Assembly (NCBI GenBank): GCA_002869615.1
Contig: PKUH01000095.1
Coordinates: forward strand, 1 to 64,000
Origin: Desulfuromonas sp.
GTDB taxonomy: Bacteria > Desulfobacterota > Desulfuromonadia > Desulfuromonadales > UBA2294
Direction: 5' to 3'
DNA: 64,000 nucleotides
Positions 4,633 through 15,202 of the stretch are shown piece after piece (position 1 is the stretch's first letter; every line of letters starts with the position of its first letter). A program made the translations under genes and the position numbers. The notes beneath the pieces were generated by a model that saw only the letters and a program-made list of their open reading frames with translations, had not been told where the DNA came from and ran no database searches.

Positions 4633-6216
4633 TTATTCCTCCTCTACTTCCTCACCCAAATCCTCAGCAATCTCCCGGAACTGCTCCAGTGCCGCCTGAA
4701 GGTCTTCAATGATCTCCGCAGCAAGCACACCTGGTTCCGGGAGGTTCTCAGAATCCTCCAGGGAGTCGTCTTTGAGCCAGAAGATATCCAGACTCGCCTT
4801 ATCGCGGGCAATCAACTCTTCATAGTCGTAACTGCGCCACCTGCCGTTTGGATTTTTTTCGCTCCATGTGGGTTGGCGGCTTGCCTGCGCGGAGCCTCGC
4901 GAGGCAGGCAGGTAGAGCTTGACGAACTCGTCAAGGTCGCTGCGCTTGAGCGGGTTAGTCTTGAGGGTGAAGTGCATGTTGGTGCGCAGATCGTAAATCC
5001 ACAGTTTCTTGGTCCACGGGGTTTCGCTGGCCGGTTTGCGGTCGAAGAAGATCACGTTCGCCTTCACGCCCTGAGCGTAGAAGAGACCGGTCGGCAGGCG
5101 CAGGATGGTGTGGACGTTACACTCGTGCAGCAGCTTGCGGCGGATGGTCTCCCCTGCCCCGCCTTCGAACAGTACGTTGTCCGGCACGACTACGGCGGCG
5201 CGACCGTGCTGCTTGAGAAGGGTTTTGACGTGCTGCATGAAGTTGAGCTGCTTGTTCGAGGTGGTCGCCCAGAAGTCGTCGCGCTCGACGGTCTCCTTCT
5301 CCTTGGCGACCTTGCCATCTTCGCCGACGATGGTGGTGCTGCTCTTCTTACCGAAGGGGGGATTGGTCAGGATAATATCGAAGCGGTCACCCGGATCGGC
5401 GGCGAGGGAATCGGAGACTGCCAGTGGCAGGTCGCTGTCGAGGCCTGCCTGCCCATCGGGCGCAGGTAAACCACTGATACCGTGCAACATAAAGTTCATT
5501 GCACAGAGCCGCGCGGTCGATTGCACCAACTCCCATCCCTTGAAGGTTCCTTCCTTGAGCGCCTTGCTCTCGGCCTTGGTCATGTGGGGATGATTGGAAA
5601 CAATGCTGTCATGGGCCGCGAGCAGAAAGCCGCCGGTACCGCAGGCCGGGTCGCAGATCGTTTCTCCCGGTTTGGGTGCAATACAATCGACGATCGCCTG
5701 GATCAACGGACGCGGGGTGAAGTACTGCCCGGCACCGCTCTTGGTGTCCTGGGCGTTCTTCTCCAGCAACCCCTCGTAGGCATCGCCCTTGACGTCGGCA
5801 CTCATCACCGACCAGTTTTCCTTGTCGAGCAGATCGACGATCAGGCGACGCAGCTTGGCTGGGTCCTGGAACTTGTTCTGCGACTTGTTGAAGATCAGCC
5901 CGAGCAGGCCCTTTTCGTTGCCGAGATTTTCCAGAGTGTGGCGGTAGTGGTCGAAGAGTTCGTCGCCGTCCTTCTTGAGCAGCGTCGGCCAGGAGTATTC
6001 GGCGGGGACGGTGCTCGGTTGCTTGTGTGCGCCTGCCTGCATATTCTGCGCAGGCGAGCCCGAGGCAGGCACATACGGCGGTTTGGTCCGCTCATCGGCC
6101 ATCTTGAGGAAGAGCAGATAGGTGAGCTGTTCGACGTAATCGCCATAGCTCATGCCGTCATCCCTCAATACATTACAAAAATTCCAAAGCTTACTAACTA
6201 TCGCTGCGGGAGTCAT
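4633..6216 (-). CDS. hsdM: Type I restriction-modification system DNA methyltransferase subunit HsdM
   Basis: This 527-residue N6-adenine methyltransferase has the helical HsdM N-terminus (SKLWNFCNVLRDDGM, YGDYVEQLTYLLFLKM). It also has the SAM-binding motif CDPACGTGGFLL with TPRPLI before it, and the catalytic NPPF of ILTNPPFGKKSS. The C-terminal DESLxxExxNLPEP-type tail is typical. Three in-frame palindromic elements interrupt it: YVPASGSPAQNMQAGAHK near the N-terminus, SGLPAPDGQAGLDS in the middle, and YLPASRGSAQASRQP near the C-terminus. All sit where homologues have loops, so function may survive. Its ATG overlaps the stop of a short ORF that repeats its own first ten residues. Confidence 0.95.
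   Translation of the reverse strand: MTPAAIVSKLWNFCNVLRDDGMSYGDYVEQLTYLLFLKMADERTKPPYVPASGSPAQNMQAGAHKQPSTVPAEYSWPTLLKKDGDELFDHYRHTLENLGNEKGLLGLIFNKSQNKFQDPAKLRRLIVDLLDKENWSVMSADVKGDAYEGLLEKNAQDTKSGAGQYFTPRPLIQAIVDCIAPKPGETICDPACGTGGFLLAAHDSIVSNHPHMTKAESKALKEGTFKGWELVQSTARLCAMNFMLHGISGLPAPDGQAGLDSDLPLAVSDSLAADPGDRFDIILTNPPFGKKSSTTIVGEDGKVAKEKETVERDDFWATTSNKQLNFMQHVKTLLKQHGRAAVVVPDNVLFEGGAGETIRRKLLHECNVHTILRLPTGLFYAQGVKANVIFFDRKPASETPWTKKLWIYDLRTNMHFTLKTNPLKRSDLDEFVKLYLPASRGSAQASRQPTWSEKNPNGRWRSYDYEELIARDKASLDIFWLKDDSLEDSENLPEPGVLAAEIIEDLQAALEQFREIAEDLGEEVEEE
4880..4914. repeat. Intragenic palindromic element in hsdM (C-terminal part)
   Basis: GCTTGCCTGCGCGGAGC and GCGAGGCAGGCAGGTAG form a long imperfect palindrome inside hsdM. 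It reads in frame as LPASRGSAQAS. It is the reverse orientation of the element at 9782-9816. Confidence 0.75.
5443..5472. repeat. Intragenic palindromic element in hsdM (central part)
   Basis: On the coding strand TTTACCTGCGCCC is followed by GATGGGCAGGCAGGC. It has the family ends TTACCTGCGC and GGCAGGCAGG and encodes LPAPDGQAG in frame, just before the catalytic domain's substrate region. Confidence 0.75.
6029..6075. repeat. Intragenic palindromic element in hsdM (N-terminal part)
   Basis: On the coding strand GTGCCTGCCTCGGGC, TCGCCTGCGCAG and ATGCAGGCAGGCGCAC follow each other as a compound palindrome, perhaps two fused copies. It encodes VPASGSPAQNMQAGAHK in frame, between the KPPY and PSTVPAEYSWP segments that are adjacent in typical HsdM proteins. 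Confidence 0.75.
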
Positions 6217-6240: not shown

Positions 6241-6300
6241 CTTGCCTGCCTGTCTGCGTGCAACGCACAGGTAGACGCCGAGCCTGTGAGGCAGGCAGGG
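6241..6300. repeat. Palindromic element, long copy, in the hsdM relic
   Basis: CTTGCCTGCCTG at the left pairs with GAGGCAGGCAGGG at the right, with an inner TGCGTG-CAACGCA hairpin and a CAGGTAGACGCCGAGCCTG segment. It is the longest non-coding member of the family and replaces the sequence after NVL in the relic. Confidence 0.7.
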
Positions 6301-6320: not shown

Positions 6321-6348
6321 GTTTATCTGCGCACGAAGTGCAGGCAGG
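6321..6348. repeat. Palindromic element, short copy, in the hsdM relic
   Basis: GTTTATCTGCGCAC-GAA-GTGCAGGCAGG is a near-minimal family member (GTTTAcCTGCGC...GCAGGCAGG). It sits between the relic codons for SKL and CNYCNVL and keeps the frame open. Confidence 0.7.
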
Positions 6349-6380: not shown

Positions 6381-7814
6381 TTATTCACCATTACCGGAGA
6401 TAGTGTCGAATCGTTTTTGAAGGATTTTCACTAAGTAATTAAGTACAGGATTAGGAGATTTTGGTGTTACTTTATTCGAGTGGTAGTCAGGTTTTTCTGC
6501 AAGACCAACGAAGGCAGTTCCCGCGATTTCCTCCTTAAATTGTGGAGCTTGTCGCTGAAAACCATCGACACTCATTGCTATTGCAGCTTTGAAGGAATAT
6601 TCTCTGTGCAACTGAAATAAAGACGAATGACGATGCGCTGTAAAAGAAGTAAGCCAAACTGTTGGCAACAACAAAACACCTCTTGCAATTACACCGCCCA
6701 GAGTTACACCACTATTTATCTCCATCGCGGTGCCATCAATCCCGGGTATTTTGAAAACATAAAGAGCCAGTGGCAGTGCTGACCCGATTAAAAATGCAAT
6801 TGCCCAATAAAAAGCTTTCTTTGCGTCAATAGCTTCACTGCCATATTTTTCAGCCGCATCATTAAAAGCTTTTGCTAAACCAGCATTCGTAGCACCTTGA
6901 AGCATCCCGTCTGCTTTTTGCAGCAGTGCATCTATTTCATTACCTCGATCCTCATTCTCTTCTAGGACTTTTGAAGTCAGAGTTTCAAATTCTTCCATTT
7001 TTGTATTTTTTTTAGACAGATCTTCTTCAAATGCATCAAACTCCTCCTGATAAGAAATAACGGACTCTTTAAGAGACTCTGCACGAGTCTTGATTTCCTC
7101 AATAAGCCCTACTTTTTCAGTTATCAGATTTCTTGCAGATTCCGAATGGTCTAATACTTCTTTTGCAGTAACGTGTGTTTCCTCTATTTCCTCCAGAATC
7201 TGTTTGGAGGAAGATAGCTTTTCTTCAATTGAGACATTCCAACTTTCAGCATTTGCTAGTAAAGGTTTGATTTTTTTATTTATGGTTACTACTTCCTCAG
7301 ATAAATCCCGAAATTTTTCAATTCGATCGGCAAGATCCGAGACTCTTCCACTCAATACCAAGTCTTTAAATAGTGCAAATTTGGAAATAAAACTACCTGC
7401 GCCACTTCGGATTTCTTTCAATGATTGCCCATAATTGATTTGTCCGGCTGTAGGGTTATCTGCTCTGTTTAAATCAATAAACCTTACCCCTTGACCGGAT
7501 TCTTTTGCTTTTATAAAAAATCCGTTTATAGCATCAGCTTGGCTTTTGATATTTACTAAAGAATCGTTAACCATCTTGAACTCTGGGGACAAGCTCAATG
7601 CTGACAAAAGAGCCTTGCTGGCATTCTTTTTAGGAGGGCTAACCAGACTAAGAGCAGCGTTGAACTTGGCGTCAAACTCTGCCAGTGGCATACCCAAGGA
7701 AGGGTGCTCAGTAGTCCAATCGAATGAAAGACTTTCTAGAAATTTGACTGTAGTAGCCCATGATTTCTCACAATCGGCTGCTAGTTTTGGCAATTTTTCA
7801 AAATGGTTATCCAT
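6381..7814 (-). CDS. Coiled-coil membrane protein encoded inside the hsd operon
   Basis: I do not recognise this 477-residue protein. ATG at 7814 follows GGGAGG; an ATG 15 bases upstream overlaps that site and is less likely. Residues ~1-150 are soluble and helical. Residues ~190-320 are a long charged coiled coil (for example EKLSSSKQILEEIEETH). Two membrane spans follow at about 336-356 (AIAFLIGSALPLALYVF) and 371-390 (GVIARGVLLLPTVWLTSF), and then a soluble tail of about 80 residues. It lies between hsdS and hsdM, three bases before the original hsdM start. It could be an accessory defence effector or sensor at the membrane; no nuclease or NTPase motif is visible. Confidence 0.85.
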   Translation of the reverse strand: MDNHFEKLPKLAADCEKSWATTVKFLESLSFDWTTEHPSLGMPLAEFDAKFNAALSLVSPPKKNASKALLSALSLSPEFKMVNDSLVNIKSQADAINGFFIKAKESGQGVRFIDLNRADNPTAGQINYGQSLKEIRSGAGSFISKFALFKDLVLSGRVSDLADRIEKFRDLSEEVVTINKKIKPLLANAESWNVSIEEKLSSSKQILEEIEETHVTAKEVLDHSESARNLITEKVGLIEEIKTRAESLKESVISYQEEFDAFEEDLSKKNTKMEEFETLTSKVLEENEDRGNEIDALLQKADGMLQGATNAGLAKAFNDAAEKYGSEAIDAKKAFYWAIAFLIGSALPLALYVFKIPGIDGTAMEINSGVTLGGVIARGVLLLPTVWLTSFTAHRHSSLFQLHREYSFKAAIAMSVDGFQRQAPQFKEEIAGTAFVGLAEKPDYHSNKVTPKSPNPVLNYLVKILQKRFDTISGNGE

Positions 7815-7885
7815 TCCCGCCTCCCTCAAGTAAATTATTAAAACATCAACCTAGCAAAATATATTCAAAATATTTCCCACAAGAA

Positions 7886-9595
7886 TCAACTACAGAGCTC
7901 ACCTGAAAATGCATTTTTCAGAATCGACTGGCGCAAACGATCAGAGCGCTGTGAATTTGCCTCAATTCCTTCAACCAAGCCTGCCTCAATTGATGCAATC
8001 CGATCAAACTCTTCAAGAATTTTGGACTGTTCACTCACTGGTGGCAGGGGTATGGGTATCCCCTTAAGAATACCTAAGTTCAAAATGTCCATAGTTCCAC
8101 CATGTGAAGCTATGGCGAACATGGCCTTTACAGAAGTTGATTGCAGATAAATCTTAATAAACAACGGGTTGATTATTTCTTTATTCAGGCTGATTTTTAC
8201 TAACCGCGGATTTATTATTCCGGGCTCAATACCATCTGGGAGAATCAATACTCGCCCTATGGTACCCACTAGGCTAATAAGCAAGTCTCCTGATTTTACA
8301 GCACAAGAAAGAAGATCTTGATATTTTTGCTCATCAACATAATAGTCTCCATAATAGGGATCTTCCCTGATTACTTGCTCTTGGCCATAAATCTTATAGC
8401 CCTTCTGAACGTAGAATAACTTTTTAAGGGCTGACCCAAATGGGCCAGCCTTTATTGCATTTGGAATTCCTTCAGCAAGTTGTTCGAAGTTAGTCCAAAC
8501 CCACCCCTCCGGCAACTCCGGCAAACCATCCGTATCCGGCGCAACAGGCTCCTTGTACTTCCCCCTCCCCTGCCAATTCGCACGCCGCTCTTCAAGAATC
8601 CGCTCCAACAGCTTGTCGGCAGGTTCAACATCACCTGCCTGCCTCGTTCTCCCGGCTGCAAGCTCTCGCTTCAACCATTTGCGACCAAAGCCGGTCTTGA
8701 GCCATTTTTCTCTTTCAGCAGCCTCAGCTCTCGTGTCGTGTTCTTCGTAATGGGCGATCTTCACCGGCTTGTGCTTTTGAGTCCATTCGGCCCCTTGCCC
8801 CTGGCGGTGTTCCTTCCAGCGACGCTCGATGTCATCGGTGTGCCCGATATAGATGCTGTCATCGTCACACAGGATGGCGTAGGTGTAGAACTTGCCGGGA
8901 ACCGAACTCGGCGCAGGTAAATGCTGCTTGCGCCATTCTTCGGTGAGCTTGCCTTCGACGGAGGCTTTGAGGACGGAGGCTTTGTAGCGCTTGAGATTGG
9001 CCTTGACGCGCTTGAGGTTGGCGACGGCTTCATCGAGGCGGGAGAATTGCTTTTCGATCTCCGCGACGATGCGTTTTTGTTGTTCAAGGGGAGCAATGGG
9101 TATCTCAATCGGATAAATCTCGCCTTTGTTAAAACCATTTTGCGCTGACCGCGAGATCATGTGAATAGGAGTTTGAAACAATGGGGTCTGAAGCAAATAA
9201 AATAGATATTTGGGGAAGATTATTTCCTTATCGAAAATAGTCTTGGCAAGGGCGACGTTATATGCGCCCTCCATACCCGTCAAGATCCTGCCAAGTGAAG
9301 CTCCATAACGAGCAATTAAGACATCATCTTTTTCACAAAATTTAGTAACTTTATTTCTTGGAACGTAAGTTGGTACAGGTTTCTTTCCAAAATCTCTAAT
9401 TTGGAGGAGTCGAACATAATCGTCTTTCGGTTCATATATAAAATTACTTTTAGGAGGCTGACTACCACCTTGAATATCTATCACATCACCGAGTTGAACA
9501 ACTTTCCACCCTGAAGGAAAGGTCTTCACATCAAGCTTGATGATTCTCTGACCTACATTTTCGGCCTTATATTGTGATTCTGCTATAACACTCAC
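7886..9595 (-). CDS. hsdS: Type I restriction-modification specificity subunit HsdS with an internal GIY-YIG domain
   Basis: This 569-residue protein starts by overlapping the hsdR stop (ATGA). Target-recognition domain 1 spans about residues 28-175 (PSGWKVVQLGDV...IPIAPLEQQKRIV) and the first conserved coiled coil about 180-225 (ending TEEWRKQH). Residues 226-321 are an inserted GIY-YIG domain: YTYAIL at 237-242, YIG at 249-251, Arg258-Arg259, and REK with the probable catalytic Glu296. After it the usual DVEPADKLLERILEERRANW resumes, followed by target-recognition domain 2 (LPEGWVWTNFEQLAEG) and its distal conserved region. The insert is exactly 96 codons, bounded by palindromic-element ends, in a loop between conserved helices. 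Confidence 0.93.
   Translation of the reverse strand: MSVIAESQYKAENVGQRIIKLDVKTFPSGWKVVQLGDVIDIQGGSQPPKSNFIYEPKDDYVRLLQIRDFGKKPVPTYVPRNKVTKFCEKDDVLIARYGASLGRILTGMEGAYNVALAKTIFDKEIIFPKYLFYLLQTPLFQTPIHMISRSAQNGFNKGEIYPIEIPIAPLEQQKRIVAEIEKQFSRLDEAVANLKRVKANLKRYKASVLKASVEGKLTEEWRKQHLPAPSSVPGKFYTYAILCDDDSIYIGHTDDIERRWKEHRQGQGAEWTQKHKPVKIAHYEEHDTRAEAAEREKWLKTGFGRKWLKRELAAGRTRQAGDVEPADKLLERILEERRANWQGRGKYKEPVAPDTDGLPELPEGWVWTNFEQLAEGIPNAIKAGPFGSALKKLFYVQKGYKIYGQEQVIREDPYYGDYYVDEQKYQDLLSCAVKSGDLLISLVGTIGRVLILPDGIEPGIINPRLVKISLNKEIINPLFIKIYLQSTSVKAMFAIASHGGTMDILNLGILKGIPIPLPPVSEQSKILEEFDRIASIEAGLVEGIEANSQRSDRLRQSILKNAFSGELCS
8634..8921 (-). mobile_element. GIY-YIG-encoding palindromic element inserted in hsdS
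   Basis: The 288-bp insert is bounded on the coding strand by TTTACCTGCGCC (8921-8910) and GAGGCAGGCAGG (8645-8634). These are the same ends as the short palindromic elements in hsdR and hsdM. Between them lies a complete GIY-YIG domain of about 80 residues in frame with hsdS. The simplest reading is that this is a nuclease-bearing member of the family and the 30-60 bp copies are internally deleted relatives. No target-site duplication can be assigned with certainty. Confidence 0.65.
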
Positions 9596-12504
9596 GCCGC
9601 CAAAACCTCATTCAATTCATCAATAATCAAATTCAAATCTTCCCCAAACAGTTGCCACACCTTGCCAATGCCTCCCTCCTGCGCAAACGGCGCATAATCG
9701 AAATCATCCGTCTCAATCTGAAGGTTGGCGGCAATGTGATCACGAATCATCTCCAGCCACTTGCGCTGCTCGGCGGTAAAACCTGCCTGCCTCGCTCCGC
9801 TCCGCGCAGGCAAGCTCTCTTGTTGTGCCATCCACGCCTTAAAGTTGACATTAACCCGTTCCGGGAACGGCACCAGCTCATTATCCTGATGCATGGCAAA
9901 CCGCACCAGCGAGACCAGATCGGTCAAGATATGATTCGCCGCAGCTCCCCGCACCTTGCCCGCCTCCAGCTTCTGGTAGGCCGCCCACAGCTCATCGGGC
10001 ACCCGCTTCTCCCACCCCTGCGGATGGGTCTGGTAGATGCGGAGCTGCTCGACCTGGGCCACCAGCTTCTCGGCCAAGTCTTTAATATGGCCGTAGGTGA
10101 GACGTTTGCCTGCCTGCGTCACGGTGTGACGCGCAGGTAAACTGTAAAGAATCTGCAAGGCGGTGATTTCGTCTTTATTCTCTTCAATAAACTGCTCGAA
10201 CGATTCGACCACCCCCCTGGCCTTCTCCTCGGTGAAGCCGGAGAAAATCACCGTATCGGTGCTGACCGTATCGATAATCTGCTCGTTCTTCTTCTTAATC
10301 TCCAACAGCAGCTCACGCAACTGCGGGTTGCAGAGTGGCTTGACCGCTTCACCAATCACCTGGGCTGCCGCCTGTTTCATTTCCTGATCGGTTGGTTCAC
10401 TTCTGTCCGCCTGCCTGCCTTGCTCCACGCGGCGCAGGTAAACCCGGGCCAGATGATTATCCGGATCGAGGGCTTCGACCAGGTCACCGTTCAATTCCTT
10501 CAAACTCTTGCCGTCGAGAAGCTCCGTCACCTCGGCCTGCTCGTCTGCCGTCAGCTTCTTCTCCATCCGCGCCAGTCGTGCCGCGACCGATGAGACCACA
10601 TCGATCTCGGCATTGCCGAAGGCGACCGCCTGCAACAGCTTCTCGAAGCCGACATTCTTCTTCCGCTCCATGGGGAGCGAATCGGTCTGGTCCATCTCAC
10701 AGACCCCGACCGCATAGACGATGACGAAATGATCCTTGGTGACGGCGTCAGGAGTAACCGCTTGCAGGTCGTTGTCGTTGATGATGCGGACCCCGCGCCC
10801 TTTCATCTGCTCGAAGTAGGCGCGCGACTTGACGGTGCGCATGAAGAACACGCACTCGCAGGCCTTGATGTCGGTGCCGGTAGCGATCATATCGACGGTG
10901 ACGGCGATACGCGGGAAGTAACTGTTGCGGAAGGCGGCGATCAGATCTTCCGGCTTCTGCCCAGTAGTGCGGTAAGTGATCTTCTGGGCGAAATCGTTCC
11001 CCTTGCCGAACTCCTCGCGGACAATCTTGACGATATCCTCGGCGTGAGAGTCGTCCTTGGCGAAGATCAGAGTCTTCGGCACCTCGGTCCGGTTCGGGAA
11101 TATCTCGGTAAAGAGCTTGTCGCGGAAGGTGCGGATAACGGTGCGGATTTGGTCGACGGCGACCACGTCACGATCGAGCTGCTTGGCCTCGTAGCTGACA
11201 TCGTCGTCGAGCTGCTCCCAGCGCACCTCGCGGGTCTCGCGATCGCGCTTATCGACGTAATAGCCTGCCTCGACCTCGCCCCCCTGCTCGCTGATGGCCG
11301 TCTTGATGCGGTAGACGTCGTAATTGACATTAACCCCATCGGCAACGGCGTGCGGATGGCCATATTCCATAACCAGGTTCTTGTTGAAAAAACCAAAGGT
11401 CTGCTTCGAGGGAGTCGCGGTCAGGCCGATCAGGTAGGCATCGAAATATTCGAGCACCTGGCGCCAGAGGTTATAGATCGAGCGGTGGCATTCGTCGGTG
11501 ACGATGATATCGAAGGTGCCGATCGGGAAGTCGGGGTTGTACTCAATCGGCTCCGGCTCCTTGAACAGCGAGCCGAGTTCATCCATCGACTCTTCGTCCA
11601 TCTCCTCCGGCAGCTCGCGACCCTTGAGCATCGAGAAGAGCCGCTGGATGGTGCAGATGGTGACCCGCGCGGTGGTGTCGAGTATGTTGCTGGTCATATG
11701 CTGGACGATGTACTCCTCGCTGAACTTGAAGTTGTTATACGGTGAGACGAACTGCTGGAACTCCTTGAGGGTCTGCCGCCCGAGGTTGCCACGATCGACC
11801 AGGAACAATACCCGCCGTGCGCCGGCGAACTTGATGAGCCGGTAGATGAAGTTGATGGCGGTAAAGGTCTTGCCTGAGCCGGTCGCCATCTGGATCAATG
11901 CACGCGGACGGTTCTCCTTGAGGGAGACTTCAAGATTCTCAATTGCCTTGATCTGTGCCGGCCACAATCCTTCGGTGATCAACTCCGGCATCTGCTGCAT
12001 GCGTGAGAGAAAGGTCGCCGGTTGGCCATAAGCAGAAAACGAGTCAGCCGCTACTTGACCGATTTCTGGCGAGACAGTAAGAGCGCTATCCAGCAGACTT
12101 GCTAGCATCTCCGGTCGATGGAAAGCAAAGACATTACGTGAGCGGGGCTCTGGATCGAGACTATTGGTGAAGCGGGTTTCAATCCCAGTCGATTCATAGC
12201 AAAATGGCAGCGGGTTATGCCAAGCAGGGAGACTTACTGGCAAGCCTGTAGTGTACTTGGCAGACTGCACCTCAACACCTGTCAGTGTTGAGCCGACCTT
12301 TTTTGCCTCAATGACTCCTGCAGCTTTTTGATCGACATACAACAGGTAGTCAGCAAAACCATAACCAGAAAGCGGAAACTCTCGGATCGCCACGCCACGA
12401 CCAGCATGAATGTTGGTAGCAGAGACATCCTGCACCTGCCACCCACATGCTGTGAGCATAGCATCAATTTGTTTTCTGGCTTCAGCTTCTGGTGCGGGAG
12501 TCAT
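9592..12504 (-). CDS. hsdR: Type I restriction-modification system endonuclease/translocase subunit HsdR
   Basis: This 970-residue protein has an N-terminal PD-(D/E)xK nuclease domain (FADYLLYVDQKAAGVIEAKK). An SF2 helicase follows, with Walker A in ATGSGKTFTA, DECH in TDECHRSIYN, LTATP, and QMKGRGVR as motif VI. The C-terminal helical region binds the HsdM/HsdS core. ATG at 12504 gives MTPAPEAEARKQID; the ribosome binding site is weak. Three in-frame palindromic elements lie in the C-terminal third (VYLRRVEQGRQADRS, SLPARHTVTQAGKR, SLPARSGARQAGF). The stop overlaps the hsdS start. The long open frames on the opposite strand are coding shadows. Confidence 0.96.
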   Translation of the reverse strand: MTPAPEAEARKQIDAMLTACGWQVQDVSATNIHAGRGVAIREFPLSGYGFADYLLYVDQKAAGVIEAKKVGSTLTGVEVQSAKYTTGLPVSLPAWHNPLPFCYESTGIETRFTNSLDPEPRSRNVFAFHRPEMLASLLDSALTVSPEIGQVAADSFSAYGQPATFLSRMQQMPELITEGLWPAQIKAIENLEVSLKENRPRALIQMATGSGKTFTAINFIYRLIKFAGARRVLFLVDRGNLGRQTLKEFQQFVSPYNNFKFSEEYIVQHMTSNILDTTARVTICTIQRLFSMLKGRELPEEMDEESMDELGSLFKEPEPIEYNPDFPIGTFDIIVTDECHRSIYNLWRQVLEYFDAYLIGLTATPSKQTFGFFNKNLVMEYGHPHAVADGVNVNYDVYRIKTAISEQGGEVEAGYYVDKRDRETREVRWEQLDDDVSYEAKQLDRDVVAVDQIRTVIRTFRDKLFTEIFPNRTEVPKTLIFAKDDSHAEDIVKIVREEFGKGNDFAQKITYRTTGQKPEDLIAAFRNSYFPRIAVTVDMIATGTDIKACECVFFMRTVKSRAYFEQMKGRGVRIINDNDLQAVTPDAVTKDHFVIVYAVGVCEMDQTDSLPMERKKNVGFEKLLQAVAFGNAEIDVVSSVAARLARMEKKLTADEQAEVTELLDGKSLKELNGDLVEALDPDNHLARVYLRRVEQGRQADRSEPTDQEMKQAAAQVIGEAVKPLCNPQLRELLLEIKKKNEQIIDTVSTDTVIFSGFTEEKARGVVESFEQFIEENKDEITALQILYSLPARHTVTQAGKRLTYGHIKDLAEKLVAQVEQLRIYQTHPQGWEKRVPDELWAAYQKLEAGKVRGAAANHILTDLVSLVRFAMHQDNELVPFPERVNVNFKAWMAQQESLPARSGARQAGFTAEQRKWLEMIRDHIAANLQIETDDFDYAPFAQEGGIGKVWQLFGEDLNLIIDELNEVLAA
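9782..9816. repeat. Intragenic palindromic element in hsdR (C-terminal)
   Basis: On the coding strand AGCTTGCCTGCGCGGAGC is followed by GGAGCGAGGCAGGCAGG. It encodes LPARSGARQAG. It is nearly the mirror of the hsdM copy at 4880-4914. Confidence 0.75.
10108..10141. repeat. Intragenic palindromic element in hsdR (central)
   Basis: On the coding strand TTTACCTGCGCGTCAC pairs with GTGACGCAGGCAGGC around ACC. It has the family ends and a strong GCGTCAC/GTGACGC stem, and encodes LPARHTVTQAG in frame. Confidence 0.78.
10409..10442. repeat. Intragenic palindromic element in hsdR
   Basis: On the coding strand GTTTACCTGCGCCGCG leads to CAAGGCAGGCAGGCG. This copy is read in a different phase (YLRRVEQGRQAD), so the LPA...QAG peptide is lost while the DNA ends are kept. 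Confidence 0.7.
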
Positions 12505-12580
12505 AATAAATTTTCTTCATCAATAATAAATTTGATTTCTGAATAAGAGTAAGATATAAATTGCTACATGGAGTTGGGAT

Positions 12581-12617
12581 GAGACCTGCCCGGTCTCAAT
12601 GAGGTCCTTCCCGGACT
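12581..12617. other. Tandem hairpins between the DUF3800 gene and hsdR
   Basis: GAGACC-TGCCC-GGTCTC (12581-12597) and GGTCC-TTCCC-GGACT (12603-12617) are two compact hairpins inside a larger GGAGT...ACTCC pairing. In the direction of the operon (minus) no T-run follows, so they may be RNA-processing or stability elements rather than a terminator. Confidence 0.4.
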
Positions 12618-12639
12618 GGCCCTGACTCCTTTTTTATTT

Positions 12640-13410
12640 CTACCATGTCCCTCTGATTGTGTATTTCACTTCCCCATCAACCTTCTTTTCATCGTATCTT
12701 ACAAAACCAAATCGCTTCCCATCTTTCGATTCCCATTGTAATTTGCACATTGATTTATAAAGGCTCATAACGGCTTGCTTTTTCTGCGCTCTCTTTGAAA
12801 GCAGATGCGCCATAATATCTGCTACTTGCACTCCTGGACTCACATTCGAAACGGCGAAATAAGGGTAACTCGATATATTTTTCAAGCCCATACCATTTAT
12901 GTAATTGTGTATAGCGATTGCAATCCCCTGCTGCGCCCCAAGTCTCTGATCAAAAACCAAATTAACCTTCTTCCCTTTGTGATCCTCACGAGCAGCTTGA
13001 GAAACGTTTTCAAGCATTTCTTTAAATGGTCTTGAAAGTTTCTTTGGGTCCGGGGAAAGTAAAGATGGATTTGCGTCCTCTCTGAAAACAGTTGAGGCAA
13101 AGGCTTTAAGGTAGAAATCTCCATGGTCTACTATTGGAAATGAGAGAATCTCTTTTACAATACTGATGTTGTTAGGAAATGGTTTCCCCGGCGTAATCAT
13201 TTCCAAAACTTTTTTAGATAGTAGTTGTTTCCCTTTTAAATCCTTCGTCTTGTCTTTGGCGTTTTCTTTACCAAAATATTTCTTTCTGGTGTCATATAAA
13301 AACTTATCGAGCCGCATCAGCTGGTTTTCTAGAACCAGGATTCCAAACAACACACCAAAATGCGGATTATGGTTTTCCGGCGGCCAGCTTTCATCAACAA
13401 ATAGCCACAT
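12640..13410 (-). CDS. DUF3800 domain protein, first gene of the restriction operon
   Basis: This 256-residue protein starts MWLFVDESWPPENH at 13410 behind GAGGGAGGGG. The early acidic motif VDES, the central LVFDQR and the late VQVADIMAHL match the DUF3800 family, whose members carry an RNase H-like arrangement of acidic residues and are common in defence islands. Biochemical activity is not established for the family. It is the promoter-proximal gene before hsdR, separated by 135 bp with hairpins. The stop is TAG. Confidence 0.8.
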   Translation of the reverse strand: MWLFVDESWPPENHNPHFGVLFGILVLENQLMRLDKFLYDTRKKYFGKENAKDKTKDLKGKQLLSKKVLEMITPGKPFPNNISIVKEILSFPIVDHGDFYLKAFASTVFREDANPSLLSPDPKKLSRPFKEMLENVSQAAREDHKGKKVNLVFDQRLGAQQGIAIAIHNYINGMGLKNISSYPYFAVSNVSPGVQVADIMAHLLSKRAQKKQAVMSLYKSMCKLQWESKDGKRFGFVRYDEKKVDGEVKYTIRGTW

Positions 13411-13431
13411 TCCACCCCTCCCTCAAAAAAC

Positions 13432-13467
13432 AAAAAACCGCCTGGCCATCACACCGGCCCAAGCGGT
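13432..13467 (-). terminator. Intrinsic terminator just upstream of the DUF3800 start codon
   Basis: On the minus strand ACCGCTTGGGCC pairs with GGCCAGGCGGT and is followed by TTTTTTGTTTTTTG. It ends only about 20 bases before the DUF3800 start. It either isolates the operon from upstream transcription or acts as an attenuator in its leader. Confidence 0.75.
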
Positions 13468-13470
13468 CAT

Positions 13471-13702
13471 CCTCAAGTATTCAACTAACCCCGCCTCCAG
13501 CAAACCCATCTGAAACTCCAGTAAAACCAGTTGTCAGATATCAGTTGGCAGTCATCAGTGAAACCAACCGAAACAACCCAAATAAAAACAATAAATATTG
13601 ATCAATCAAAGCCGATCAACTCAAAATAATTAACTTAAACAAACTACAGGTTTTTCATTCAAAAAGCAAAGCTGGATTGCCGATCAAGTCGAGAATGAAA
13701 CA
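13471..13702. other. Intergenic leader without a gene
   Basis: AT-rich sequence lies between two minus-strand terminators. A weak promoter-like TTGATC plus downstream AT-rich box can be found on the minus strand, but nothing strong. No reading frame with a ribosome binding site is visible. Confidence 0.4.
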
Positions 13703-13735
13703 CAAAAAAGGCCCCGGAATAATCCGGAGCCTTTT
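13703..13735 (-). terminator. Terminator after the tRNA-Val 3' remnant
   Basis: On the minus strand GGCTCCGG-ATTATT-CCGGGGCC forms a stem followed by TTTTTTG. It lies directly after the duplicated tRNA-Val 3' end and was probably the original terminator of this tRNA gene before insertion of the mini-island. Confidence 0.8.
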
Positions 13736-13740
13736 GTTTC

Positions 13741-13789
13741 TGGTGGGCGTTACTGGGATCGAACCAGTGCCCCCTGCCGTGTGAAGGCT
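13741..13789 (-). repeat. Duplicated 3' end of tRNA-Val: attachment-site remnant
   Basis: This 48-bp stretch copies the anticodon loop, T arm, acceptor 3' strand and CCA of the intact tRNA-Val at 15128-15202, with two mismatches. It is in the same orientation. Upstream of the anticodon arm the match ends abruptly. Such partial duplication is the usual trace of tyrosine-recombinase integration at a tRNA 3' end. Everything between 13790 and 15127 would be the inserted segment. Confidence 0.85.
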
Positions 13790-13882
13790 TTTTCGACTTT
13801 CACCAATCTTTCAAAACCCCTATTTTTAGGGGCTTCTGAGATTTCACCACCTTATTTTTGGTATTTACATCATCCATAATAG

Positions 13883-14593
13883 TCACTTTTTAGTCACTGT
13901 ATCCTTCAAAATTATATGGGATGGTTCGAAGCCGATAGCCTTGCAGGATTCTCGAATCATGTACCGGGTCTTCTTGCTCATCCTGTATCCCCCGGCCATC
14001 GCCTCAAGCACCTTAATATCCAATTGCCCGGCAAGAAGACCACATTGCTCCAGATCTTTCTCCTTTTTCCACTCTTGAGGACGCCGCTGGGCGACGATCA
14101 GTTTTTGGAAAAAGAGTGCTTCCGGCCGGGGAATGCGAATCAGGCAGCCCGCGAACTCAACCTCGATCGGATCGATAAACAGAATATCAATGAACGGCAT
14201 CGCCTGGGCAATGACATTGAATTTCCGAACCATCTTGACCTCTTCTCGTCCACCCGGGCGATGCACCAGGAATTCAACCTCATACAAATCGGTCAAAAAC
14301 TTCTGCAAGCCGGTTTCACTGTCAGTGACCGGCTCCATCCCCAGAGCCTTGAATTCTGCTTCGAGGTCAATCGCTCTGGCTTCCTTCAAAATCCCCGGCA
14401 CCAGTGCAAAGTCTATATCGCCAGTCCGCAGCACATACTTTATACCGAGCACCTCTTCATAGAAGAGCATTGCCCAGCTACCGACAAGCAGACCGTCATT
14501 AAAGAAATCGGCTTTATCGAGAACTTTCAGCAGTTCGAGGATTTCGGCAGGCAACCCAAGGTCACTATCAACTTTGTACTTGGCCAACTTCAA
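13883..14593 (-). CDS. Nucleotidyltransferase-fold protein in the tRNA-Val mini-island
   Basis: The 236-residue protein carries the nucleotidyltransferase signature GSWAMLFYEEVLG (G-S helix), followed by RTGDIDFAL, where the two Asp are expected to bind metal. This resembles minimal or AbiEii-type nucleotidyltransferases. Later it has VEFLVHRPGG and IPRPEALFFQKLIVAQRR, like the helical part of such proteins. Its ATG overlaps the upstream gene's stop by four bases. With the small upstream partner and operator-like boxes it could be a toxin-antitoxin-like module; that role is inferred. Confidence 0.75.
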   Translation of the reverse strand: MKLAKYKVDSDLGLPAEILELLKVLDKADFFNDGLLVGSWAMLFYEEVLGIKYVLRTGDIDFALVPGILKEARAIDLEAEFKALGMEPVTDSETGLQKFLTDLYEVEFLVHRPGGREEVKMVRKFNVIAQAMPFIDILFIDPIEVEFAGCLIRIPRPEALFFQKLIVAQRRPQEWKKEKDLEQCGLLAGQLDIKVLEAMAGGYRMSKKTRYMIRESCKAIGFEPSHIILKDTVTKK

Positions 14594-14922
14594 ACCTTTA
14601 ACAATTTCTCAAGATAGCGTGACCTGTCGGCAAACTTCTTCAACGAGGCATCCTTCTTCCGGCGAGCTTCAATCTGCTCTTTCAGGTGGTCCAACTGATC
14701 CGCAGGAATATGCTCATAAACGCTTTTCCCCGCTTTGCGGAACTTGCGATAGTGATATACGGATACCTTGCCTTTGTAGTTTCGTTCCCGCTGGTGGATT
14801 GACCCCTTAGGCAACTCGGCGATATCCGCACGCAGGGAATCCATCAACTTCTGGCATCGATCCAGTTCATCCCGAAGCATTCCCTGCAAAACTTCATCAT
14901 TTTTTTTGTGCACCACTTTCAT
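14590..14922 (-). CDS. Small basic protein resembling the DUF6788 family
   Basis: This 110-residue protein is helix-rich and basic, with a central LPKGSIHQRERNYKGKVSVYHYRKFR, a beta-hairpin-like segment, then YEHIPADQLDHLKEQIEARR. I place it with DUF6788-like proteins from memory of that pattern; no function is known to me. It is the first gene of the pair with the nucleotidyltransferase (4-bp overlap). Its first codons contain a copy of the GTGGTGCACA box repeated in the promoter region, so it or its partner may be an autoregulator. Confidence 0.65.
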   Translation of the reverse strand: MKVVHKKNDEVLQGMLRDELDRCQKLMDSLRADIAELPKGSIHQRERNYKGKVSVYHYRKFRKAGKSVYEHIPADQLDHLKEQIEARRKKDASLKKFADRSRYLEKLLKV

Positions 14923-15005
14923 ATTAATTACATATCATGTGGTGCATACATTGGCAAGATTATTGTACACCACATAAAACAAAATAACAGCTATTGTGGT
15001 GCACA
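14906..15005. promoter_or_regulatory. Four iterated TGTGGTGCACA-type boxes at the mini-island promoter
   Basis: Copies lie at 14906-14916 (inverted, inside the first codons), 14938-14948 (direct), 14964-14974 (inverted) and 14995-15005 (direct, itself palindromic as TTGTG-GTG-CACAA). Spacings are about 21-32 bp centre to centre. The array fits cooperative autorepression of the downstream gene pair. Confidence 0.65.
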
Positions 15006-15084
15006 AACATTTAGGTGGCGGGAATCGTATCAATATATTAAATAATAATCTTTGAATTATTGATCGGCACAAAAAAGGCACAAC

Positions 15085-15117
15085 GAAAAAAGGGTTACAG
15101 CATCTTAGCTGTAACCC
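15085..15117 (-). terminator. Terminator of tRNA-Val
   Basis: On the minus strand GGGTTACAGC and GCTGTAACCC form a 10-bp stem with a six-base loop, followed by TTTTTTCG, just after the tRNA-Val CCA end. Confidence 0.9.
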
Positions 15118-15127
15118 CTTGATTTTA

Positions 15128-15202
15128 TGGTGGGCGTTACTGGGATTGAACCAGTGACCCCTGCCGTGTGAAGGCAGTGCTCTCCCGCTGAGCTAAACGC
15201 CC
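15128..15202 (-). tRNA. tRNA-Val (anticodon CAC)
   Basis: The 75-nt gene folds into a full cloverleaf: acceptor GGGCGTT/AACGCCC, D arm GCTC/GAGC, anticodon stem CTGCC/GGCAG with loop TTCACAC (anticodon CAC), T arm ACTGG/CCAGT with TTCAATC, and encoded CCA. It is the integration site of the mini-island to its left. Confidence 0.97.

Follow-up and report, generated by a model that had tools for sequence, protein, structure and literature searches.

The window, a 64,000-nucleotide stretch of contig PKUH01000095.1 from Desulfuromonas sp., contains an hsd operon in which hsdS, hsdM, and hsdR all carry inserts within their reading frames (Table 1). The HsdS protein matches two Pfam families, Methylase_S (6e-26) and GIY-YIG (PF01541; 1.3e-15, residues 235–302), and the second match, at 57.8 bits against a cut-off of 22.6, places the insert in the GIY-YIG family. 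The inserted peptide, LPAPSSV...GRTRQAG, corresponds to HsdS residues 226–321, and the complete domain of 96 codons that the initial annotation had read there, from the letters alone, was borne out by the profile match. The same annotation had taken the flanking segments (TEEWRKQH and its partner) to be exactly contiguous in ordinary HsdS proteins; they are nearly so, with one codon between them (QH-P-DVEP) in the closest insert-free HsdS homologue (G009). Alignment of HsdS proteins showed that close homologues in three genomes (G009, G026, and G177) have no insert, and the domain is therefore not fixed among close relatives. Two other GIY-YIG genes of the same genome (C73 and C9) are free-standing and do not have the ends of the HsdS insert. 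These ends had also been said to be common to at least eight short palindromes of the operon, and related ends were confirmed at all eight sets of coordinates, three in hsdR, three in hsdM, and two intergenic. Between hsdS and hsdM (6381–7829, minus strand) lies a gene for a 482-aa coiled-coil, probably membrane protein with a weak Taxilin match below the cut-off, and two near-identical 59-nt stretches near the operon (13730–13788 and 15117–15175) resemble tRNA gene ends (TGGTGGGCGTTACTGGGATCGAACC...) and are a possible integration point.

Table 1. Features of the hsd operon and its inserted elements, in positions of the window.
Feature	Position	Strand	Description
hsdS host gene	7886–9595	-	569 aa; reading frame open through the GIY-YIG element
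GIY-YIG element in hsdS	8634–8921	-	288 nt, 96 codons in frame; coding-strand left end TTTACCTGCGCC, right end GAGGCAGGCAGG
Left terminal inverted repeat	8897–8921	-	Coding strand TTTACCTGCGCCGAGTTCGGTTCCC; imperfect pairing with the right end (alignment of the two ends)
Right terminal inverted repeat	8634–8656	-	Coding strand GCCGGGAGAACGAGGCAGGCAGG
hsdR	9592–12504	-	970 aa; three in-frame short palindromes
Short palindrome in hsdR	9782–9814	-	33 nt, SLPARSGARQAGF
Short palindrome in hsdR	10109–10141	-	33 nt, SLPARHTVTQAGK; site also occupied in Nitrospira L119/L227
Short palindrome in hsdR	10410–10442	-	33 nt, VYLRRVEQGRQAD; site also occupied in L030/L225, L049, L082
hsdM	4633–6216	-	527 aa; three in-frame short palindromes
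Short palindrome in hsdM	4880–4912	+	33 nt, opposite orientation, YLPASRGSAQAS
Short palindrome in hsdM	5444–5470	-	27 nt, GLPAPDGQAG
Compound palindrome, hsdM N-terminal region	6032–6071	unassigned	Site occupied in L039, L069, L079, L227; empty in L253, L254, L225
Intergenic compound palindrome, upstream of hsdM	6241–6299	unassigned
Intergenic short palindrome	6322–6348	+	TTTATCTGCGCACGAAGTGCAGGCAGG

The short forms span 27–39 nt, are open in most frames, and are tolerated in several phases and in both orientations; in-frame short copies were counted within open frames chosen by hand, and the frame bias of the short copies is therefore not an unbiased measure. Genome-wide counts come from pattern searches, in which a strict form of the palindrome (CCTGCCTGCN{3,30}GCGCAGG) matches the 3.08-Mb genome six times, always within the hsd operon, and the reversed pattern used as a control has no match. 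Because the strict palindromes are confined to the operon, with no sign of spread beyond it in the Desulfuromonas genome, operon and elements probably entered this genome together. The same pattern gave scattered matches in 57 relatives, with at most five per genome, and none in viral contigs. Operons homologous to that of the window, at 81–85% identity, do not have most of the short elements, and occupancy is thus patchy. Some of the short-copy sites are not clean insertions; at hsdR 10109, for example, four host residues are missing as well.

Run against the genome_contigs collection (84,980 species), the palindrome pattern gave 109 loci, most of which appear to be chance hits or unrelated GC-rich sequence. 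Matches within hsd genes (14 of 110) represent, by a rough estimate, a share far above that of hsd genes in a genome, and often fall at the sites used in the window, namely hsdR 10410 (L030 and L049), hsdR 10109 (Nitrospira L119), and hsdM 6032 (L039, L069, and L079). The position occupied by the nuclease in the HsdS of the window is filled in two Aminicenantes HsdS proteins (L057 and L076) by a short palindrome, encoding LPASPCSAQAS between EWREQH and EDELEPADK. Among 15 genomes chosen solely for their short palindromes, four also have the nuclease form at the same hsd locus.

The nuclease form was sought with the insert and its flanks in 297 genomes of the phylum of the window, and then with alignments of the copies found in 21 chosen genomes and in three other phyla (297, 246, and 246 genomes); the queries of the later searches consisted solely of nuclease sequence and so carried no bias toward any host gene. 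Seventeen further copies of this GIY-YIG subfamily were found in other genomes, spread over several bacterial phyla, and 13 of them have both ends intact. The initial annotation had staked its proposal on the recurrence of the domain between these ends in other genomes, and this recurrence was found in many genomes, in frame and in different genes. The hosts are HsdS (the window, L163, L165, L166, L114, and L134), HsdR (L131 and L233), HsdM (L140, L240, and L234), HmaB/DUF1156 methylases (L132 and L133), HmaA-like helicases (L230 and L241), a DrmD-like helicase (L232), and a truncated PD-(D/E)XK nuclease protein (L130), and a further copy lies antisense within an adenine methylase gene (L235). 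Nearly all hosts are thus anti-phage or DNA-modification genes, and on the basis of 18 copies we conclude that the element prefers defence genes. Most nuclease frames are open, with a single stop in each of two copies (L133 and L241) and a frameshift in a third (L140); the copy in L134 has its own ATG. Plasmid and phage collections yielded only distant GIY-YIG relatives, none of them reaching 60% identity. Two host frames have a more complex structure: a 1239-aa HmaB/DUF1156 frame (L218 in G158, 11434–15150) contains, in frame, both the GIY-YIG element and at least four short palindromes, and the HsdS of G364 (L166/L026) has a second palindrome (SPAPKTKLRQAG) near the right end of its GIY-YIG copy and GAGKPTFSD in tandem repeat upstream of it, an arrangement that suggests a nested or repeated insertion.

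The copy in the window and the 13 others with both ends intact were compared in detail. All 14 are 279–297 nt long, with a length that is a multiple of three, and all are inserted after codon position 2 (phase 2). The left end is CCTGCCTGCGCC (with variants CTTGCC and TTTACC) and the right end is GGCAGGCAGG or close to it, and in most copies the two form imperfect terminal inverted repeats of about 18–25 nt, the ends of a copy matching each other better than ends swapped between copies (permutation p = 0.002). The alanine codons at the ends are nearly invariant (GCG on the left in 13 of 14, GCA on the right in 14 of 14), whereas internal alanine codons vary (22 GCC, 20 GCA, 19 GCT, and 15 GCG), which indicates that conservation of the ends is at the DNA level. 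The flanks of the insertion favour (G/C)A^YG, a preference that may reflect DNA specificity or the tolerance of proteins for Asp-Gly turns. No target-site duplication was evident, and in the joined HsdM flanks no base is in excess, save perhaps for a 1-nt ambiguity. The GIY-YIG domain is the sole domain found in the element, with no transposase, and Pfam scans of the host reading frames gave host domains and GIY-YIG only, with no Hint splicing domain. Since stops usually interrupt the long element in its other frames, sense insertion in phase 2 is generally the only way to keep both host and nuclease readable, and selection therefore suffices to explain the frame.

Removal of the element leaves a plausible intact host in the 14 copies. 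With the element taken out of HsdM L240 (EDD joined to GVPFEEKM), a 59-aa stretch aligns to plasmid HsdM without a gap, and the same holds for 68 aa of HsdM L234 (VPD joined to AWI); in HsdR and the HmaA-like helicase the joined flanks also align through the insertion point but differ slightly in length. The L234 site, GGA^TGCCTGG, is found in three states, with the long form in L234, a 33-nt short form at the same nucleotide in L219, and no element in the plasmid homologues; an empty HsdM site has the sequence ...GTGCCGGATGCCTGG.... The initial annotation had proposed that the short copies are deletion derivatives of the nuclease form, and the relationship is upheld by the common ends and by the presence of both forms at one HsdM site, with the direction from long to short presumed.

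The catalytic motif Y...YIG...R(x3)H...E is invariant across 10 copies (Y14, Y24-I-G26, R34, H38, and E71). By sequence, the nearest solved structures are UPF0213 proteins (1ywl and 1zg2) and SLX1, and a structure model with a mean pLDDT of 85.7 is consistent with this likeness, with modest fold matches (TM about 0.5–0.6) and a single match below E 0.001. SLX1 is a structure-specific endonuclease, and by analogy a nuclease of this kind would suit a palindrome that can fold.

For comparison, 41 GIY-YIG genes that belong to other subfamilies, most of them recovered in the searches above, were scored for inverted repeats around the gene. Their mean score was 19.4 against 14.6 for swapped ends, a value reached in none of 20,000 permutations, and eight of the 41 exceeded the 99th percentile of the controls, which suggests that small GIY-YIG nucleases and palindromic repeats are associated more generally. 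Some of these genes are clear families of their own. Small GIY-YIG nucleases could be the mobility enzymes of an unrecognised superfamily of bacterial palindromic elements, with the HsdS-insert subfamily specialised to translated in-frame inserts in anti-phage genes and other subfamilies working with other palindromes (CCCYGTTARATA, TTCGACAGGCTCA, and GTCATTGCGAGGAG...CAATCTC), a proposal whose chances we put at about even.

Several individual arrangements outside the subfamily were also noted. An HsdR-like frame of 633 aa (L168 in G356, Brocadiaceae contig C503) contains a GIY-YIG domain of a different subfamily in frame, together with several adjacent palindromic repeats of the TTCGACAGGCTCACC type that are also translated (GSTGSPTT and VEGACPEPVEG). 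Five free-standing GIY-YIG genes (L157, L169, L156, L152, and L148) end in YLTG or YFTG followed by a stop and lie between inverted repeats (ACCCYGTTARATA or ACCCTGTGAAATA), the right repeat being formed by the C-terminal codons themselves. Another GIY-YIG gene (L187, G179:C10:31237–31470) is bounded by the palindromic repeat GTCATTGCGAGGAG...GCAATCTCA with an inverted match of 39 columns.

Identity between copies from different genes reaches 72.6%, and in a tree built from 17 copies one well-supported clade (99/96) unites those in HmaA, HsdM, HmaB, and the adenine methylase gene; together these point to past movement between genes. Where one site is occupied in different phyla, the copies have diverged about as much as their hosts (77% vs. 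79–85% for amino acids and 72% vs. 70–73% for DNA), which implies that spread between genomes has been largely by transfer of the host gene, with the element hitch-hiking. Recurrent occupancy of a site was considered as proof of homing and was rejected, the same-site copies being as diverged as the host genes. No near-identical copies were seen at different sites of one genome, and no movement was observed. As regards the mobile element that the initial annotation had put forward, the ends, the frame, the different hosts, and the empty sites can all be read in the sequence, and transposition itself is what we infer.

Taken on the sequence evidence, the insert at 8634–8921 is in all likelihood a mobile palindromic element that encodes a GIY-YIG nuclease and is translated in frame with its host. 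Such an element would be about 280–300 nt long, with imperfect inverted ends on the coding strand (5' CCTGCCTGCGCC(GCG) ... (CGC)GGCAGGCAGG 3') and a single open frame that encodes a small UPF0213/SLX1-like nuclease, usually without its own start codon. The nuclease would recognise the folded palindrome and cut both the end and the target, and host repair would join the element cleanly, without evident target duplication, at sites like (G/C)A^YG. Copies would be retained where they lie in the sense orientation after codon position 2, with host, element, and host read as one protein, the nuclease expressed from the host promoter, and the host protein still readable; this placement would come from selection and not from a frame-sensing mechanism. 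The short palindromes, with the same ends minus the nuclease frame, would most simply be internal-deletion copies, and the hosts, nearly all DNA-handling anti-phage genes, would move between phyla and carry the elements with them.

Other explanations were weighed. The element may have been mobile only in the past, with an ancient spread and a present distribution due solely to horizontal transfer and recombination of defence genes; this is a genuine possibility, if on balance a doubtful one, for the host-like divergence of same-site copies, the confinement of the elements of the Desulfuromonas genome to the hsd operon, and the decayed copies (the stops in L133 and L241 and the frameshift in L140) all agree with it, whereas the patchy occupancy among operons 81–85% identical to that of the window, the mostly open nuclease frames, and the invariant catalytic residues argue against it. 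The open frame and intact catalytic motif are equally what would be expected had HsdS recruited a GIY-YIG domain for its restriction system, with the palindromes as unrelated linkers, but such a functional fusion is scarcely credible when the same domain and DNA ends occur in different unrelated genes, close HsdS homologues have no insert, the ends are conserved at synonymous positions, and the same ends are found without the domain.

It is also very unlikely that the insert is removed after transcription, by ribosome bypass over a hairpin or by protein splicing, to leave an unaltered host product. Bypass elements involve an mRNA hairpin, and the inverted repeats could form a long one, but bypass would not need the nuclease frame to be continuous with the host on both sides, as it is in most copies, and Pfam shows no splicing domain. 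A GIY-YIG form that is mere cargo, among palindromes mobilised by an unrelated transposase, is somewhat easier to entertain and still unlikely: for small palindromes such as REPs, mobilisation by transposases whose genes lie at other loci has been suggested (PMC2817692; PMC8266576), but no other protein is common to the loci that were read, the nuclease is the only frame of the element, and other GIY-YIG subfamilies also tend to have flanking inverted repeats (8/41 above the 99th percentile of controls).

If the preferred reading of a mobile, nuclease-encoding palindromic element is correct, a mobile element keeps its host gene working through being translated as part of the host protein, its mobility is driven by a type of nuclease not known to move palindromes, and GIY-YIG nucleases are linked to palindromic repeats in a parasite travelling on defence genes. 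It would also suggest how palindromic inserts read in frame within bacterial proteins originate, a question that has stood since the Rickettsia elements were described, and a single purified domain of about 95 residues, together with short duplexes, would suffice to test it directly. Searches of open-access papers for GIY-YIG with palindromes, REP, MITE, HsdS, or the end sequences returned no description of such an element, in agreement with the initial annotation, which knew of none that spreads in frame in this way; a subscription paper may have been missed.

Among known systems, UPF0213 proteins (1ywl and 1zg2) and SLX1 are closest to the nuclease in sequence and fold among solved structures, and we know of no mobility or inverted-repeat ends in either. 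GIY-YIG homing endonucleases, the known ones of which are found in introns or free-standing, resemble the element in catalytic fold and motif, in having a nuclease gene as the mobile unit, and in recurrent occupancy of the same site, but the present element shows nothing that would allow splicing, is bounded by inverted repeats, and is found at many unrelated sites. Inteins are likewise inserted in frame in DNA-handling proteins, sometimes with a nuclease, whereas this element has no splicing domain, is only 93–99 codons long with the termini LPAP and RQAG, and nothing suggests its removal. With insertion sequences and MITEs it has in common the terminal inverted repeats and the pairing of an enzyme-bearing long form with enzyme-free short forms, but not a transposase or an evident target duplication. 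REP palindromes and REPINs also combine short palindromes with one small DNA-cutting protein, TnpA-REP (RAYT), their putative mobiliser in trans (PMC2817692; PMC3116915; PMC8266576); RAYT, however, is a tyrosine (HUH) transposase and REPs are extragenic, whereas here the enzyme is a GIY-YIG nuclease encoded inside the palindrome and the elements lie in frame inside genes. The Rickettsia palindromic elements (RPE), compared by their published description, are about 150 bp long, encode a conserved peptide, and lie in frame in many unrelated metabolic genes (PMC10969869), and the present elements, too, are palindromic and occur in unrelated genes as translational fusions. The two differ in that RPE are described in that paper without a nuclease and in metabolic hosts, whereas the element in the Desulfuromonas HsdS encodes its own nuclease and its relatives reside in defence genes.
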